Assembly: GCA_025362395.1 (NCBI GenBank)
Contig: JANYGK010000037.1
Location: forward strand, 1-64,000
DNA length: 64,000 bases
Reading direction: 5' to 3'
Source of the DNA: Bacteroidota bacterium
GTDB taxonomy: Bacteria; Bacteroidota; Bacteroidia; B-17B0; Aurantibacillaceae
The notes under the pieces are model-generated. The model was given only the letters and a program-made list of their open reading frames with translations. It made no database searches and had not been told where the DNA came from. The translations under genes were made by a program, and so were the position numbers. Numbering within the stretch: position 1 is the first letter of the stretch; the number at the start of each line of letters is the position of its first letter. This document shows positions 19,554 through 25,639 of this stretch, one piece after another.

Positions 19554-21053
19554 TTAGTTCCCGTCTAAATAAGATTCCAGCAATGCTTTTTTGTCCGTTT
19601 TGTAATTGCTGTTCAAAGGAAATTCCGGTTTCATAATAAACTCGGACGGGATCATATAAGACGGTAAATACTTTAAGAGAAATGATTTCAGTTCTTCATT
19701 TATATTTTTAAATGCAGATGCATCAGCGATTACAAAGCAAATTATTTTTTTCGCAACATTGCCGGCTACTAAAGGAACGGCCACTGCATTTTTTATACGA
19801 GGATGTGTCAGTAATACATTGCTTATTTCTTCAAGTTCTATGCGGTATCCGTTTAGCTTTATCTGGTTATCATTTCTTCCTAAATAAAAGATTAAACTAT
19901 CTTTAATATAACCGACGTCACCTGTTTTATAAATGCGCTTACCGTTTTTATTTACGAAAGCCTGTTTGGTTTTTTCTTCATCTTTAAAATAACCGATTGA
20001 TAGGTTTTGACCTATTAAACCAATTTCACCAATGCCGGTTTCTTCGTCTTTGTTTAAAATTACTATTTCAGCATTTGGCCTGCAGTAGCCTATTGGCAAT
20101 GACTTTGGATGTTCGGCCAACACTGCTTCCGTAATTTCAATGTAGGTTGTGACAACAGTTGCTTCTGTAGGGCCAAAGGCGTTAATTATTTTTACGGAAG
20201 GAAATTTTAGCTTTAATTTTTTAACTGTGTTCACCGGCAATTCTTCGCCCATAAAAACAAACTGATTAATCTCCGGGGAATGTTCCCCGTTAAATTCAGG
20301 AATGGAAAGATAGATCAAAACAAAGGATGGTGTACAAACTAAGGTGGTGGCGCGGTATTCTTTTAAACGGTTTAAAAAGCCCGCACCGCTTTTTAAAATA
20401 GTGTAATCGTTTAAAACAACCGTGCTGCCTTTTCCGAAGCAGGCAAGAAAATCGCACAAAGACACATCAAAACTAAAAGGTGCCTGGTTCATCAGCACAG
20501 AACTTTCATGGATCAAAGGCCAAGTTAAATACCAGTTTGCAAAACTGTTTAAGGCATTTTTTGTTATTTTTACTCCTTTGGGAATTCCCGTACTTCCTGA
20601 AGTAAATAGAATGTAACGGATGGGATCAGATTGATTATCCAAAATAAAAAAATCAGGGACGGGCTCATTAATTTTTAGTTGAAAAGTGTTGTCCAAGTAA
20701 ATTTCAAAAGAAACTTCGCATAATTTATTCGAACAATTAATAAGCACTTTACTCTTAGTTTGTGCTTTTATTTTTTCAATTCTTCCTGCCGGCATAATGG
20801 CATCAATAGGAATGTAAGGGATGTTTAATGAAATTAATGTGATCATTACCACAGGAAACAACGCTTCCTTTTCGCCATAAATGCAAACGGGATGGCCTTG
20901 AGGAATTTGTAATTTAAGTAATTGATCTTTTAATATGAGGTGTAGATCGTAAACTTGCTTTTGATTTAATATGCGGTCAGAGCCAATAATAAAAGGCTTT
21001 CCGGAGAGTTTATCCGTATTTATAAATTGGTTAGTATTAAAATCGAATGTCAT
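19554..21053 (-). CDS. dltA: DltA-like D-alanine--carrier protein ligase (AMP-binding)
   Basis: ILFTSGSTGIPKGVKIT, NQAPFSFDVSLCDFLACFGKGSTVVL, NAFGPTEATVVTTY, GYRIELEEISNVL; sits in dlt operon. Confidence 0.85.
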   Translation of the reverse strand: MTFDFNTNQFINTDKLSGKPFIIGSDRILNQKQVYDLHLILKDQLLKLQIPQGHPVCIYGEKEALFPVVMITLISLNIPYIPIDAIMPAGRIEKIKAQTKSKVLINCSNKLCEVSFEIYLDNTFQLKINEPVPDFFILDNQSDPIRYILFTSGSTGIPKGVKITKNALNSFANWYLTWPLIHESSVLMNQAPFSFDVSLCDFLACFGKGSTVVLNDYTILKSGAGFLNRLKEYRATTLVCTPSFVLIYLSIPEFNGEHSPEINQFVFMGEELPVNTVKKLKLKFPSVKIINAFGPTEATVVTTYIEITEAVLAEHPKSLPIGYCRPNAEIVILNKDEETGIGEIGLIGQNLSIGYFKDEEKTKQAFVNKNGKRIYKTGDVGYIKDSLIFYLGRNDNQIKLNGYRIELEEISNVLLTHPRIKNAVAVPLVAGNVAKKIICFVIADASAFKNINEELKSFLLKYLPSYMIPSEFIMKPEFPLNSNYKTDKKALLESYLDGN

Positions 21054-21063
21054 TAGTTTACTG

Positions 21064-22188
21064 TTATTGATACCTGCCGCTAAATATATAAAGGGCGATA
21101 CAAATTAAATGAAATAGAATAACAACAGAACTATATTTTATGATCTTCGGATCTAAATTTCCGAAAACAATATCTTTATCTTTTTTGCGGCATTGAATGG
21201 CGTAAGTATTATGAACTACGCTGTAAATACCATAAATGATACCGCTCCATATAAAATTAGGCTCAAGTCCATTCCAGATCCCCATCATAAAAAGCGTAAA
21301 AAAGATGGCAATATTTTGTTTGGTAATCGGGCTTTTTTTCAGTTTTTGAAATCCGTTGAGCCACTTGTAAAAAGGCTTGAAGAAATAGTCACTTAACCAG
21401 CTTGTTAAGGAAGCATGCCAGCGCTGCCAAAAATCCGGAGGATTAATAGCGCTAAACGGTTTATTAAAATTAAAGGGAAGGCTTATTCCAACTAAGTTTC
21501 CCATGCCCACTGCCATGGAAGAATAGCCGGCAAAATCAAAAAATAAATAAAAGGCGTAGGCGTATACATCACTCACACGTGCACCGGCAGTTAAGCCTTC
21601 CTCTAAGGAATGATTTAGCCAATAGCGCGAAATATATTCGGCAATAATAAATTTATAAAATACGCCTTTTATAAATTCCTGTAAGCCGCTTAGAATGATG
21701 GATTGACTTATAGATTGATAACCGTTAATACTATTCTCCGTAAAACGTTTGTACCTGTCTAGCGGACCAATATAAAACGAAGGAATAAAAAATAGGAAAT
21801 TAAAATAGTGCATGAAATTAAGCGGCGCTTCTTTCGAATAATCAATGCTCACCTGTATGGCTCTAAATGTGACAAATGATAAACCGGCAAAATATAAAAA
21901 AGAAGGATTTAAATGTATCTTTAATAAAACCATAGGTATTGCTATAATAACAGCGCAAATTAACCGGTGATTTATTTTTTGTGATAAAAAACGAATGAAT
22001 AAAAAAGTAAAAATTACATAGCTTATAGCAACTGTTGTATATCTGAAATAAAAAACGAGATAGATAAGTGTTAACGCAAAGGTGATAGCCGGGTAGTGTT
22101 TTTTATCCGAAATAATACCAAATAGCCATACTATTAATACGTACAGTAAGGCAAAAAGAAAAAAGTCGATATCGGTAAATGGCAACAT
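21064..22188 (-). CDS. dltB: DltB-like MBOAT O-acyltransferase
   Basis: MBOAT signature: SFVTFRAIQVSIDY, FFIPSFYIGPLDRYKRF, YLFFDFAGYSSMAVGMGNLVGISLPFNFNKPFSAINPPDFWQRWHASLTSWLSDYFF, FMMGIWNGLEP. Confidence 0.87.
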   Translation of the reverse strand: MLPFTDIDFFLFALLYVLIVWLFGIISDKKHYPAITFALTLIYLVFYFRYTTVAISYVIFTFLFIRFLSQKINHRLICAVIIAIPMVLLKIHLNPSFLYFAGLSFVTFRAIQVSIDYSKEAPLNFMHYFNFLFFIPSFYIGPLDRYKRFTENSINGYQSISQSIILSGLQEFIKGVFYKFIIAEYISRYWLNHSLEEGLTAGARVSDVYAYAFYLFFDFAGYSSMAVGMGNLVGISLPFNFNKPFSAINPPDFWQRWHASLTSWLSDYFFKPFYKWLNGFQKLKKSPITKQNIAIFFTLFMMGIWNGLEPNFIWSGIIYGIYSVVHNTYAIQCRKKDKDIVFGNLDPKIIKYSSVVILFHLICIALYIFSGRYQ

Positions 22189-22346
22189 TAAAATTGAGCG
22201 TAAACAAATGAAAAATCAGTATGCGGAATGTTATTAAGGTCTTTATTACCATAGTTGTAAAGGAAATACCCGCCAACTACAATGCATGTGTATACCAGCG
22301 TGTTCTTTGCAAACAGCCAAAGGTGTTCGTTTCGTGCTTTAATCAT
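22188..22346 (-). CDS. dltX: DltX-like 52-aa membrane microprotein (not in the supplied ORF track)
   Basis: Hand translation: MIKARNEHLWLFAKNTLVYTCIVVGGYFLYNYGNKDLNNIPHTDFSFVYAQF*. Single TM, C-terminal FVYAQF (cf. FIYNEF of DltX). Start overlaps dltD 3' end, stop overlaps dltB start (TAATG). Confidence 0.83.
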   Translation of the reverse strand: MIKARNEHLWLFAKNTLVYTCIVVGGYFLYNYGNKDLNNIPHTDFSFVYAQF

Positions 22347-23610
22347 AATAATTGTCTAAAATAAATTTGTCTATTTTATACCAACCTACATTGTAAGGAT
22401 GCATCATATCTTCCAACACCCCTTTTTGATAAGACGTTACATTAGGCGAAAACATATCGAGTGTTTTCAAATCATTCTCTTTTAAGAGTTGTTTAATATC
22501 ATTGATGGTTGGCTGCAGTGCTTCTAAGTTTTCGTGTGCTAAAGTGTTTAAAGGCATGATCACAAATAACGGTTTAACATGATTCTCTTTTAAAAAACGA
22601 ATAAGTATTTTAAAATCTTTAAGCTCTTGATTGTTTTCTGCGTTAACGGCTTTTACTTTTTTCTTCGGTTTATTTTTTAATCCGCTTTCGTAGTACTTAT
22701 TTTCAACACCAAGGGTGTTATTGTTACTGATCAACTCAAAGCTTTGCAAGGCCTCTTTGTTTAGGGAGTCCCAGTTAACAGTCCTGTTTTTAAATTTGTA
22801 AGGAGTCGTATATGTCCTGTATACGGTATTCACGATCACATTTTGTGACACGAGGTAAAAATCTTTTTGCTCTTGTTCATATAATTCTAAACGATCTAAC
22901 GCTTTAAAAGGATAATTGAAAAATGTATTTAATACGGTTGCTTGCTTTTTGCCCATCGCTCTCAGTATGGCATTAGGTTTGGTAATTTTATCATAATTTT
23001 CATAAATGTATTTTTTTATGTAGTGTTTTGTTTCCTTATCAATAGCCGTATCTTTATATATTTGATATAAATAATTAGGGGGACAAAATTCAAAAAACGA
23101 GGGTAAAGAAGTCCCTGAAGCATAGTGGCCTTCAAACCAACCCGGTGATAGAATAATGGTAATCTTTGCGTCTTTTAAAAGCGGCCTGTTTGCGGCCAGT
23201 GTGGTTAAAATGGCAAAGCTTTGAAAACCCGCGTGACCAACGGCCAAAAATTTATCCGCGCTATTTTCTCTTCCAAAAAATTGTTGAGCAATCCCTTTTA
23301 AATGATGGGATGTTAATTCTGATGAGCCAAACAAAACAGGTATCCGTTCTTTCAAAGCTACTGCCAGGGCAGTTTCGTGCGTTATATCATTCGGATAAAA
23401 TTTATCGAAGCTGTGGAGTGTATTGAGGATTCGCGACGTAAATGAAGAATTTACAATTTCACTTCTTTTTTGCGAATACCTCATATAGGCAGCACACAAA
23501 GTACCGGCAATAAGGATCGGTAAAATATGAAAATAAATTATTTTTTTTAAAAAGCCCGGCACTTTATAATTCTTTAGTGTAGGTTTGTTATCAGATCTTT
23601 TTTCGTTCAA
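22339..23610 (-). CDS. dltD: DltD-like D-alanyl transfer protein
   Basis: N-terminal TM; VLFGSSELT (catalytic Ser motif), PGWF, C-terminal MMHPYNVGWYKIDKFI (Asp/His-type motif); between dltC-like and dltB-like genes. Confidence 0.86.
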   Translation of the reverse strand: MNEKRSDNKPTLKNYKVPGFLKKIIYFHILPILIAGTLCAAYMRYSQKRSEIVNSSFTSRILNTLHSFDKFYPNDITHETALAVALKERIPVLFGSSELTSHHLKGIAQQFFGRENSADKFLAVGHAGFQSFAILTTLAANRPLLKDAKITIILSPGWFEGHYASGTSLPSFFEFCPPNYLYQIYKDTAIDKETKHYIKKYIYENYDKITKPNAILRAMGKKQATVLNTFFNYPFKALDRLELYEQEQKDFYLVSQNVIVNTVYRTYTTPYKFKNRTVNWDSLNKEALQSFELISNNNTLGVENKYYESGLKNKPKKKVKAVNAENNQELKDFKILIRFLKENHVKPLFVIMPLNTLAHENLEALQPTINDIKQLLKENDLKTLDMFSPNVTSYQKGVLEDMMHPYNVGWYKIDKFILDNYYD

Positions 23611-23815
23611 TATAAGTTTGAATCAATTGCGGGGTACTGAAATTTTCTAAAGTTATTTCCGTGAAAGGAATTGAGATGTTAAATTCATCTTCCAGCGAAG
23701 TTGCCAGGTCAACCACAAGGATCGAAGTAAGGATCCCCGATTGAAATAATTCATCCGTATCGTTTACTTTTTTAAAAGCAACTTCTTTAATTTTTTCTTT
23801 AATTATCTCAATCAT
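23591..23815 (-). CDS. dltC: DltC-like acyl/D-alanyl carrier protein
   Basis: 74 aa carrier fold DTDELFQSGILTSILVVDLATSLEDEFNISIPFTEITLENFSTPQLIQTYI; overlaps dltD start by 20 nt. Confidence 0.85.
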   Translation of the reverse strand: MIEIIKEKIKEVAFKKVNDTDELFQSGILTSILVVDLATSLEDEFNISIPFTEITLENFSTPQLIQTYIERKKI

Positions 23816-23961: not shown

Positions 23962-24789
23962 ATGATTCGAGTGTTTTTTAGCATGCTGTTGGTTTTAACC
24001 TTTTCCCTTGTCGTGCATGCACAGGACATTATATACACAACGGGAGGTAATAAAATTACGGCCAAAGTTACTGAGCTTAATATGACGGATGTTAAGTATA
24101 AAGATTTTGCTAATTTGGAAGGTCCAACGTATGTTATTTCAAAAGTAGAGGTAGTGCTTATTCAATTCAGTGACGGCTCTTCGCAGATTATTAATGAAAA
24201 TCCACCTTCTTTAGAACCAAAAAAGCCGGAAGAAAAGCAGGCAAAGACTCCGGTTAAAAAGAAAGATTTTAACCTGTATTATTTAAGTAAAAATTTATTG
24301 TCAATTAATGCTTTAGCACTCGCTAACGGCGATGTAACGCTTTTATATGACAGAGAGTTGTTAGACAGTAAGCTGTGCCTTACATTTTTAGGAGGGTATA
24401 ATTTTAATCCCCACATGGGCGGCCTCAATGGCTTAATTGCAAATGCCTATCAGCATACTAAAAAAAATTATGATGCGGGTTTTGGCATCAGTTTTATGCC
24501 AAGAAACACAAGGCGTGTACAATATTTTATTGGATTACTCGTAAAGTATATGTCTTATAACTATGAGGACCTTACGGTTGTTAACAGCCAATCAGTCCTT
24601 GCTGTAAGTAAAGGTTCACAGCTTGCCATTATGCTCAATAACGGCTGGGTTTTCAGGATTACCCCTAATTTAAATTTTAAATTTTTTGGTGCAATAGGCG
24701 CACCTATCAATACTCCCAAGCTAACCCAACAGGATGCGAACCTTGTGCCTAAAGTATATTTAGGATATTGTTTCGGATATAGATTTTAA
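23962..24789 (+). CDS. Secreted hypothetical protein (paralogue of next gene)
   Basis: Signal peptide MIRVFFSMLLVLTFSLVVHAQ; NKITAKVTELNMTDVKYKDFANLEGPTYVISKVEVVLIQFSDGSSQII. Confidence 0.7.
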   Translation: MIRVFFSMLLVLTFSLVVHAQDIIYTTGGNKITAKVTELNMTDVKYKDFANLEGPTYVISKVEVVLIQFSDGSSQIINENPPSLEPKKPEEKQAKTPVKKKDFNLYYLSKNLLSINALALANGDVTLLYDRELLDSKLCLTFLGGYNFNPHMGGLNGLIANAYQHTKKNYDAGFGISFMPRNTRRVQYFIGLLVKYMSYNYEDLTVVNSQSVLAVSKGSQLAIMLNNGWVFRITPNLNFKFFGAIGAPINTPKLTQQDANLVPKVYLGYCFGYRF

Positions 24790-24796
24790 AAACAGT

Positions 24797-25639
24797 ATGA
24801 AGAGCGGCTTACATATTATTTTTTTATTACTTGTTTTTGCAGGATTTAAGGGCTATTCGCAGGATAAATTATTTTTAAGAAAAGGAGCGTTACTTAAATG
24901 TAAGATCATTGCGGTTTCTGAAAAGACAATTACTTACAGGGATACCGCAGCAAATTCACAACTCATTACTATTCCCAAGGGAGATGTTATTTTGGCGGAA
25001 TATCAAACAGGCGTTATTTATATTTTCAGCTCCGAAAATCCTATTGTTCAACAACCTGAAGTTTTTGAAACGCGCGACCAGAGGAAAGAACGGAAGATGA
25101 AGGAATGGAAAACAAAAGAGCATGCTTTGTCGGATAATATACTGGGCTTCTATATTCCCGATCTAATCCTGGGAAGGCTTACGATGTCTTTCGAAAGATT
25201 AATAGCAAATAAAACGGTTGGGATCACTGTTCCTTTAAGCTTAACGTACGACTCGTTCGGCGCTTTAGCGGCGGCGAGTGCTAATTCAAATTCGGTTAAT
25301 AACGGGCAAACTGTCTCAAGTCCTATTCGGCGTACGCGTGGATTAGGTTTTATTGCAGGTATTGATGTCAATTATTATTATGATTTGAAACCCGAATTAA
25401 AATATTATTTCGGCCCCCGCATACGGTATGGTACCGATATGGTTTTAGGAGGAATTAACGGGCTTACTTTTCAATTACAAAACGGAATTTTCAGGAGCAG
25501 GGGCCAGAATATGACCAGTACCATTGGGTTTGGCGTTGGCTTTGTAAAACTGACAGGTAACAATACGGTTAGGTCGAGAGATCCGAAACAGGTTTATCCC
25601 TGGGCATCATTTACATGGCGTTTAGGGTTCAGGTTATAA
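24797..25639 (+). CDS. Secreted hypothetical protein (paralogue of previous gene)
   Basis: Signal peptide MKSGLHIIFLLLVFAGFKGYSQ; GALLKCKIIAVSEKTITYRDTAANSQLITIPKGDVILAEYQTGVIYIF. Confidence 0.7.
   Translation: MKSGLHIIFLLLVFAGFKGYSQDKLFLRKGALLKCKIIAVSEKTITYRDTAANSQLITIPKGDVILAEYQTGVIYIFSSENPIVQQPEVFETRDQRKERKMKEWKTKEHALSDNILGFYIPDLILGRLTMSFERLIANKTVGITVPLSLTYDSFGALAAASANSNSVNNGQTVSSPIRRTRGLGFIAGIDVNYYYDLKPELKYYFGPRIRYGTDMVLGGINGLTFQLQNGIFRSRGQNMTSTIGFGVGFVKLTGNNTVRSRDPKQVYPWASFTWRLGFRL

Follow-up and report, generated by a model that had tools for sequence, protein, structure and literature searches.

The dlt cluster and its small reading frame

The window, by which we mean the whole stretch of 64,000 nucleotides that was analysed, carries a tight cluster of five genes on the minus strand in the order dltC-dltD-dltX-dltB-dltA, with the following features:

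23591..23815, minus strand: dltC-like acyl carrier protein, 74 aa (PF00550, E 2.6e-7; phosphopantetheine Ser in GILTS)
22339..23610, minus strand: dltD-like SGNH acyltransferase, 423 aa if the uncertain start codon is right (PF04914, E 3.2e-48, 165 bits)
22188..22346, minus strand: dltX-like ORF, 52 aa, putative single-pass membrane microprotein, kept in 9/9 family loci
22254..22304, minus strand: predicted transmembrane (TM) segment of the DltX-like peptide, approximately residues 15-31 (hydropathy and alignment with Gram-positive DltX)
22191..22208, minus strand: C-terminal hexapeptide FVYAQF with a putative acyl-shuttle role (FXYXXF motif of PMC12148441); Tyr49 codon at 22200-22202
21064..22188, minus strand: dltB-like MBOAT, 374 aa (TIGR04091, 244.1 bits; 6bug, E 4.7e-50)
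21415..21417, minus strand: DltB His258 codon (RWH), equivalent to S. thermophilus His289 in the alignment to 6bug
21271..21273, minus strand: DltB Asn306 codon (WNG, not WHG) at the His336 position in the alignment to 6bug
19554..21053, minus strand: dltA-like D-alanine carrier-protein ligase, 499 aa (best families NF003417/TIGR01734)

A preliminary description of this DNA had placed a 52-aa ORF with a single TM helix between dltD and dltB on the minus strand, overlapping both neighbours, and its coordinates and translation (minus strand, 22346..22188: MIKARNEHLWLFAKNTLVYTCIVVGGYFLYNYGNKDLNNIPHTDFSFVYAQF) proved to be exactly as claimed. At its ATG the ORF shares 8 bases with the 3' end of dltD (ATGATTAA), and its TAA has one base in common with the ATG of dltB (TAATG). 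Hydropathy analysis finds one hydrophobic segment in the peptide, preceded by an N-terminus with a net charge of +1; the topology is a prediction. Tyr49 lies within the C-terminal FVYAQF. The neighbouring dlt gene products match their Pfam families above the cut-offs and miss the NCBIfam equivalog cut-offs; as judged from sequence, the cluster is divergent yet complete.

Conservation and selection

Within the genus, four further genomes carry orthologs of dltB, and a profile search added four from elsewhere in the family, so that dltB is present in 9 of the 89 family genomes, with a clear score gap to other MBOATs (548 vs 175 bits). All nine loci contain an ORF of 49-52 aa at the same position that ends in F[VI]Y[AQ]QF, as the preliminary description would lead one to expect of related operons, and the dltX-like ORF and dltB co-occur exactly, with both in nine family genomes and neither in the remaining 80. 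Eleven positions are invariant across the nine orthologs (M1, F12, Y19, Y27, L29, Y30, N39, F47, Y49, Q51 and F52). A profile of the peptide gave strong matches in exactly the nine dltB-bearing genomes and no strong match in the other 80 family genomes or in 398 further Bacteroidota; since it was built from the nine sequences themselves, only its absence elsewhere is independent. No DltB was found in Verrucomicrobiota at 1e-60, in a search run without a positive control, and viral contigs scanned with the Enterobacter DltB gave no match. Two Bacteroidota matches at approximately 190 bits (L096, L097) lie in frames of 508-535 aa, the length of an AlgI-type MBOAT, and were set aside.

Coding constraint, the other property on which the earlier claim hinged, is also seen: the two most similar dltX-like genes have a pN/pS of 0.04, and none of the 36 pairs reaches 1, although dS is saturated in most of them. 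This codon pattern shows purifying selection. That the ORF is a mere chance frame might be argued from its shortness and from its score under the Pfam cut-off, but the low pN/pS, the invariant C-terminus, the starts and stops coupled to those of the neighbours and the recurrence in nine of nine loci make this explanation negligible. The ORF is confirmed as a real gene because it is conserved at all nine loci, is under purifying selection and gives the best match among 745 short stop-to-stop frames of the window to a profile of five Gram-positive DltX sequences.

Relationship of the peptide to DltX

Conservation, synteny and profile-profile comparison back the preliminary description in likening the peptide to DltX and in matching its end to FxYxxF, while the proposed search with the Pfam DltX model gave a score below the threshold. 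PF12459 is indeed the Pfam match of the ORF, but at 12.8 bits (E 0.085) it is sub-threshold against a gathering score of 25 bits, where a Listeria control reached 57.1, so that the score does not by itself place the peptide in the family in the strict sense. Eight of the nine orthologs match PF12459, all below threshold (best 19.5 bits, E 0.00069), and in some of the related copies the alignment extends as far as the last positions of the model. One ortholog (G454) has no DltX match in the Pfam scan and in another (G462) a different Pfam family outscores DltX. At the level of alignments, hhalign matched the nine sequences to five Gram-positive DltX sequences, drawn from plasmid records, with P 1.7e-6 and a probability of 90, and the match spans both the TM segment and the FxYxxF C-terminus. 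Single dltX-like sequences score barely above residue-shuffled controls against the five-sequence profile (one block-shuffled control gave 18.7), and the case for DltX therefore rests on family, position and motif together. A PDB sequence search with the peptide returned nothing meaningful, and PF12459 had no matches across the phylum to which a Tenericutes bin belongs.

Like Gram-positive DltX (PF12459), the peptide is about 50 aa long, has one predicted TM helix and a short positive N-terminus, probably exposes its C-terminus on the outside, ends in FxYxxF with an invariant Tyr and has its gene clustered with dltA, dltB, dltC and dltD; profile-level homology adds to these features. It differs in the position of its gene, which lies between dltD and dltB, whereas the Gram-positive gene precedes dltA, and in a longer predicted periplasmic stretch before the motif, which contains the conserved N39. 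Besides the differing gene order, other MBOATs of this genome carry the same hexapeptide as a fusion, which could suggest that the tail is not homologous to Gram-positive DltX and is instead the C-terminal shuttle helix that became separated, independently, from an AlgI/PatA-type MBOAT. We regard this as improbable, since the match to the Gram-positive profile includes the TM segment and not the motif alone, and since the DltB of the cluster is nearest to DltB and not to AlgI/PatA. The ORF is thus a probable DltX ortholog, and the proposal that its product works like DltX is well supported.

Gram-negative dlt clusters in other phyla

DltX in Gram-negatives has already been reported, in Dickeya, whose operon Pandin et al. 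are said to have named dltDXBAC in 2016. Gram-negative dlt clusters also occur in Dickeya, Pectobacterium and Photorhabdus (PMC3544676). An Enterobacter cloacae plasmid carries dltD-X-dltB-dltA-dltC, with near-identical plasmids in Klebsiella, and its X (L048, 5701-5823) is a 40-aa “hypothetical protein” ending in FEYQKF (MMKTAIRLFLLYLLLAITIVAWTSVDDSMSLQLHFEYQKF) for which no Pfam match was found. With this putative X, the D-X-B order is seen in a second phylum of diderms. The cluster described here and the plasmid cluster share this order, a small peptide ending in FxYxxF and a DltB with WNG; they differ in that dltC is first here and last there, in that DltX has only 40 aa in the plasmid, and in the DltB sequences, which are 33-36% identical. 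DltX of diderms is overlooked by family models, as the Enterobacter copy, annotated as hypothetical, illustrates. E. coli genomes gave no match to the Enterobacter cluster. In the Enterobacter plasmid the cluster is flanked by insertion sequences, and some of the Enterobacter and Klebsiella dlt plasmids are conjugative.

An asparagine in the active site of DltB

The DltB of the window matches the solved S. thermophilus DltB (6bug) over its full length (E 4.7e-50), and TIGR04091 also matches it at full length, with 244.1 bits under a cut-off of 375. With respect to the S. thermophilus structures (6BUG, 8JF2; residue numbering of PMC11035591), the equivalent of His289 is kept as His258, which is invariant in 11 of 11 DltBs, whereas His336 is replaced: MGFWHG of S. 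thermophilus DltB reads MGIWNG in the alignment to 6bug, placing Asn306 at the His336 position. Asn occupies this position in all ten diderm DltBs (the nine from Bacteroidota and that of Enterobacter), while Listeria has His. When 85 MBOAT frames, many of them from redundant loci, were compared, 23 had Asn, all of which are copies of the ten diderm DltBs, and 62 had His, among them eight DltBs from Gram-positives and AlgI/PatA-like MBOATs from the same genomes. Almost all of these AlgI/PatA-like MBOATs end in a fused hexapeptide of their own (e.g. FIYFRF), whereas the DltB ends in FSGR and has no fused shuttle motif. DltX in Gram-negatives being already known, the replacement of His336 by Asn in DltB is the less expected result.

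In eukaryotic MBOATs Asn or Asp comes first and His second (PMC11035591, PMC8316800). Thus, most eukaryotic MBOATs have the order WN...WH, PatA/AlgI and Gram-positive DltB have WH...WH, and the diderm DltBs have WH...WN, such that the presumed His/Asn pair of diderm DltB is in reverse order compared with the eukaryotic enzymes. We infer that His258, the His289 equivalent, is the base in catalysis. His326 was considered as a stand-in for the lost His and ruled out, since it is Tyr in one ortholog. An AlphaFold model of DltB made from five sequences had a pLDDT of 42 and was discarded.

The literature describes the MBOAT His as invariant, and most of the MBOATs that have been tested depend on it (PMC8316800, PMC11035591). 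The Asn is present in every one of the diderm DltBs, so that DltB could be catalytically dead or repurposed and the cluster devoid of acyl transfer. Against this, the five genes are intact and co-conserved across divergent genomes, and neither His258 nor the DltD triad nor the DltX motif has been lost. Moreover, an MBOAT need not be inactivated when its second His is removed, since Hhat H379A retains ~50% of its activity (PMC2890405), and polymyxin sensitivity is seen in a dltB mutant of Dickeya (PMC3544676), a Gram-negative outside the set of DltBs aligned here. A DltB that has lost its function is therefore very improbable. As naturally occurring DltBs in which the “invariant” MBOAT His is missing, the diderm enzymes lend themselves to testing which His does the chemistry in MBOAT acyltransferases.

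DltC, DltD and the substrate pocket of DltA

The closest NCBIfam equivalog of the DltC-like protein is DltC, under its cut-off, and Ser31 is invariant. DltD scores 143.9 bits with TIGR04092 (cut-off 150) and has the SGNH Ser and Asp-x-x-His with an intact triad, Ser97, Asp401 and His404 being invariant in an alignment with DltD of Listeria, Enterococcus and Enterobacter. The best NCBIfam families of DltA are NF003417 and TIGR01734 (400.9 and 382 bits, below the cut-offs; 401 vs 476), and the amine-binding Asp196 is kept.

Cys268 of DltA selects the enantiomer of alanine (PMC8972799), and this column holds Met268 in the window and Ile in Enterobacter. Within the pocket, Cys200 and Met268 here stand against Met200 and Cys268 in Gram-positives, an apparent reciprocal swap, and the substrate preference may differ. 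These changes favour a variant of the relay in which the mechanism is real and D-alanine is replaced as the acyl group, for instance by a small amino acid such as L-alanine or glycine. However, the best NCBIfam families are those of DltA, the amine-binding Asp is present and sub-threshold scores are expected at such a distance, so that we consider a different acyl group rather unlikely and assume D-alanine.

A putative acyl relay via Tyr49

In our main reading, to which we assign a probability of roughly 85%, the ORF encodes a diderm DltX that would carry an acyl group on Tyr49 within a DltA-DltC-DltB-DltX-DltD relay to a surface polymer. Judging from its family, DltA would charge DltC with an amino acid, in all likelihood D-alanine. 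DltB, by analogy with work on S. aureus Dlt and PatA, would move the acyl group through the membrane to Tyr49 of DltX at the periplasmic mouth, presumably with His258 as the base. DltX, as a single-pass inner-membrane peptide, would hold the acyl group on the Tyr of FVYAQF and swing to the SGNH enzyme DltD, whose Ser would take it over. Finally, DltD would esterify a surface polymer, probably O-antigen or a capsule-like polysaccharide, which is the weakest step of the scheme.

The acyl-Tyr shuttle via FXYXXF is established for PatA and has been described for S. aureus DltX (PMC12148441). The preliminary description had held that the same relay operates here as in Gram-positive Dlt. Because acyl-Tyr formation in FXYXXF motifs has been described (PMC12148441), we infer on good grounds that this lineage would use the same acyl relay; the DltB step, where Asn replaces His336, cannot match exactly, and since the canonical MBOAT His is absent the relay is not the same in this detail. 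Compared with PatA/PatB and AlgI-type MBOAT-SGNH systems, which have the motif fused to the MBOAT C-terminus, an acyl-CoA donor and the canonical WHG, the shuttle motif is supplied here by a separate DltX.

A regulatory role of DltX on DltB has been proposed (PMC11035591), and much of the TM segment is as well conserved as the tail, as might be expected if the homolog only scaffolded or gated DltB-DltD without a covalent Tyr intermediate. Yet Tyr49 and both flanking Phe residues are invariant, the same motif has a proven acyl-Tyr in PatA (PMC12148441), and it is fused to MBOATs that are without DltX (PMC12148441 and the MBOAT survey), which renders a purely structural role quite improbable. 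The relay via Tyr49 would extend the DltX acyl-shuttle mechanism to Bacteroidota.

Acceptor and genomic setting

To our knowledge, Bacteroidota make no teichoic acid. No TagF-type CDP-glycerol glycerophosphotransferase (PF04464) was found in the source genome (G000), and among 25 relatives two match PF04464, one of which has no dlt cluster (G016) and the other of which matches weakly (G008). The flanks of the dlt cluster change from one lineage to the next, in the manner of a mobile cassette, and in two relatives (G003 and G012) the cluster lies inside an O-antigen/exopolysaccharide-type locus (L036, L074); its neighbours in G012 are a Wzy/O-antigen ligase (Wzy_C), a DegT aminotransferase, a sugar transferase (Bac_transf) and a glycosyltransferase. 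This setting is a hint to the acceptor. Since no TagF-type polymerase was found in the genome and the cassettes of two relatives lie in an O-antigen-type locus, a non-teichoic acceptor seems plausible, as the preliminary description had implied, and a Wzy-type surface polysaccharide is a first guess. For Dickeya, the Dlt acceptor was described as unknown and loss of dltB led to polymyxin sensitivity (PMC3544676).

Tentatively, and with somewhat less than even confidence, diderm Dlt systems may be characterised by a relocated MBOAT His (WH...WN), in which the His289 equivalent alone would activate the DltX Tyr, and by a relay that decorates a Wzy-type surface polysaccharide in place of teichoic acid. 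The diderm DltBs also offer a test of the polymer that is modified by Gram-negative Dlt systems.

Two further observations concern the surroundings of dlt genes. On a Ligilactobacillus murinus plasmid (L050, 3579-4987) a lone dltB, near which no other dlt genes are annotated, adjoins a gene for a bactofencin A-type cationic bacteriocin. In the window, a tandem pair of genes at 23962-25639 diverges from the dlt cluster; their products, of 275 and 280 aa, are related to each other and look secreted, and the first has no Pfam match. Relatives of these proteins adjoin the dlt cluster in two other genomes (G006 and G008).
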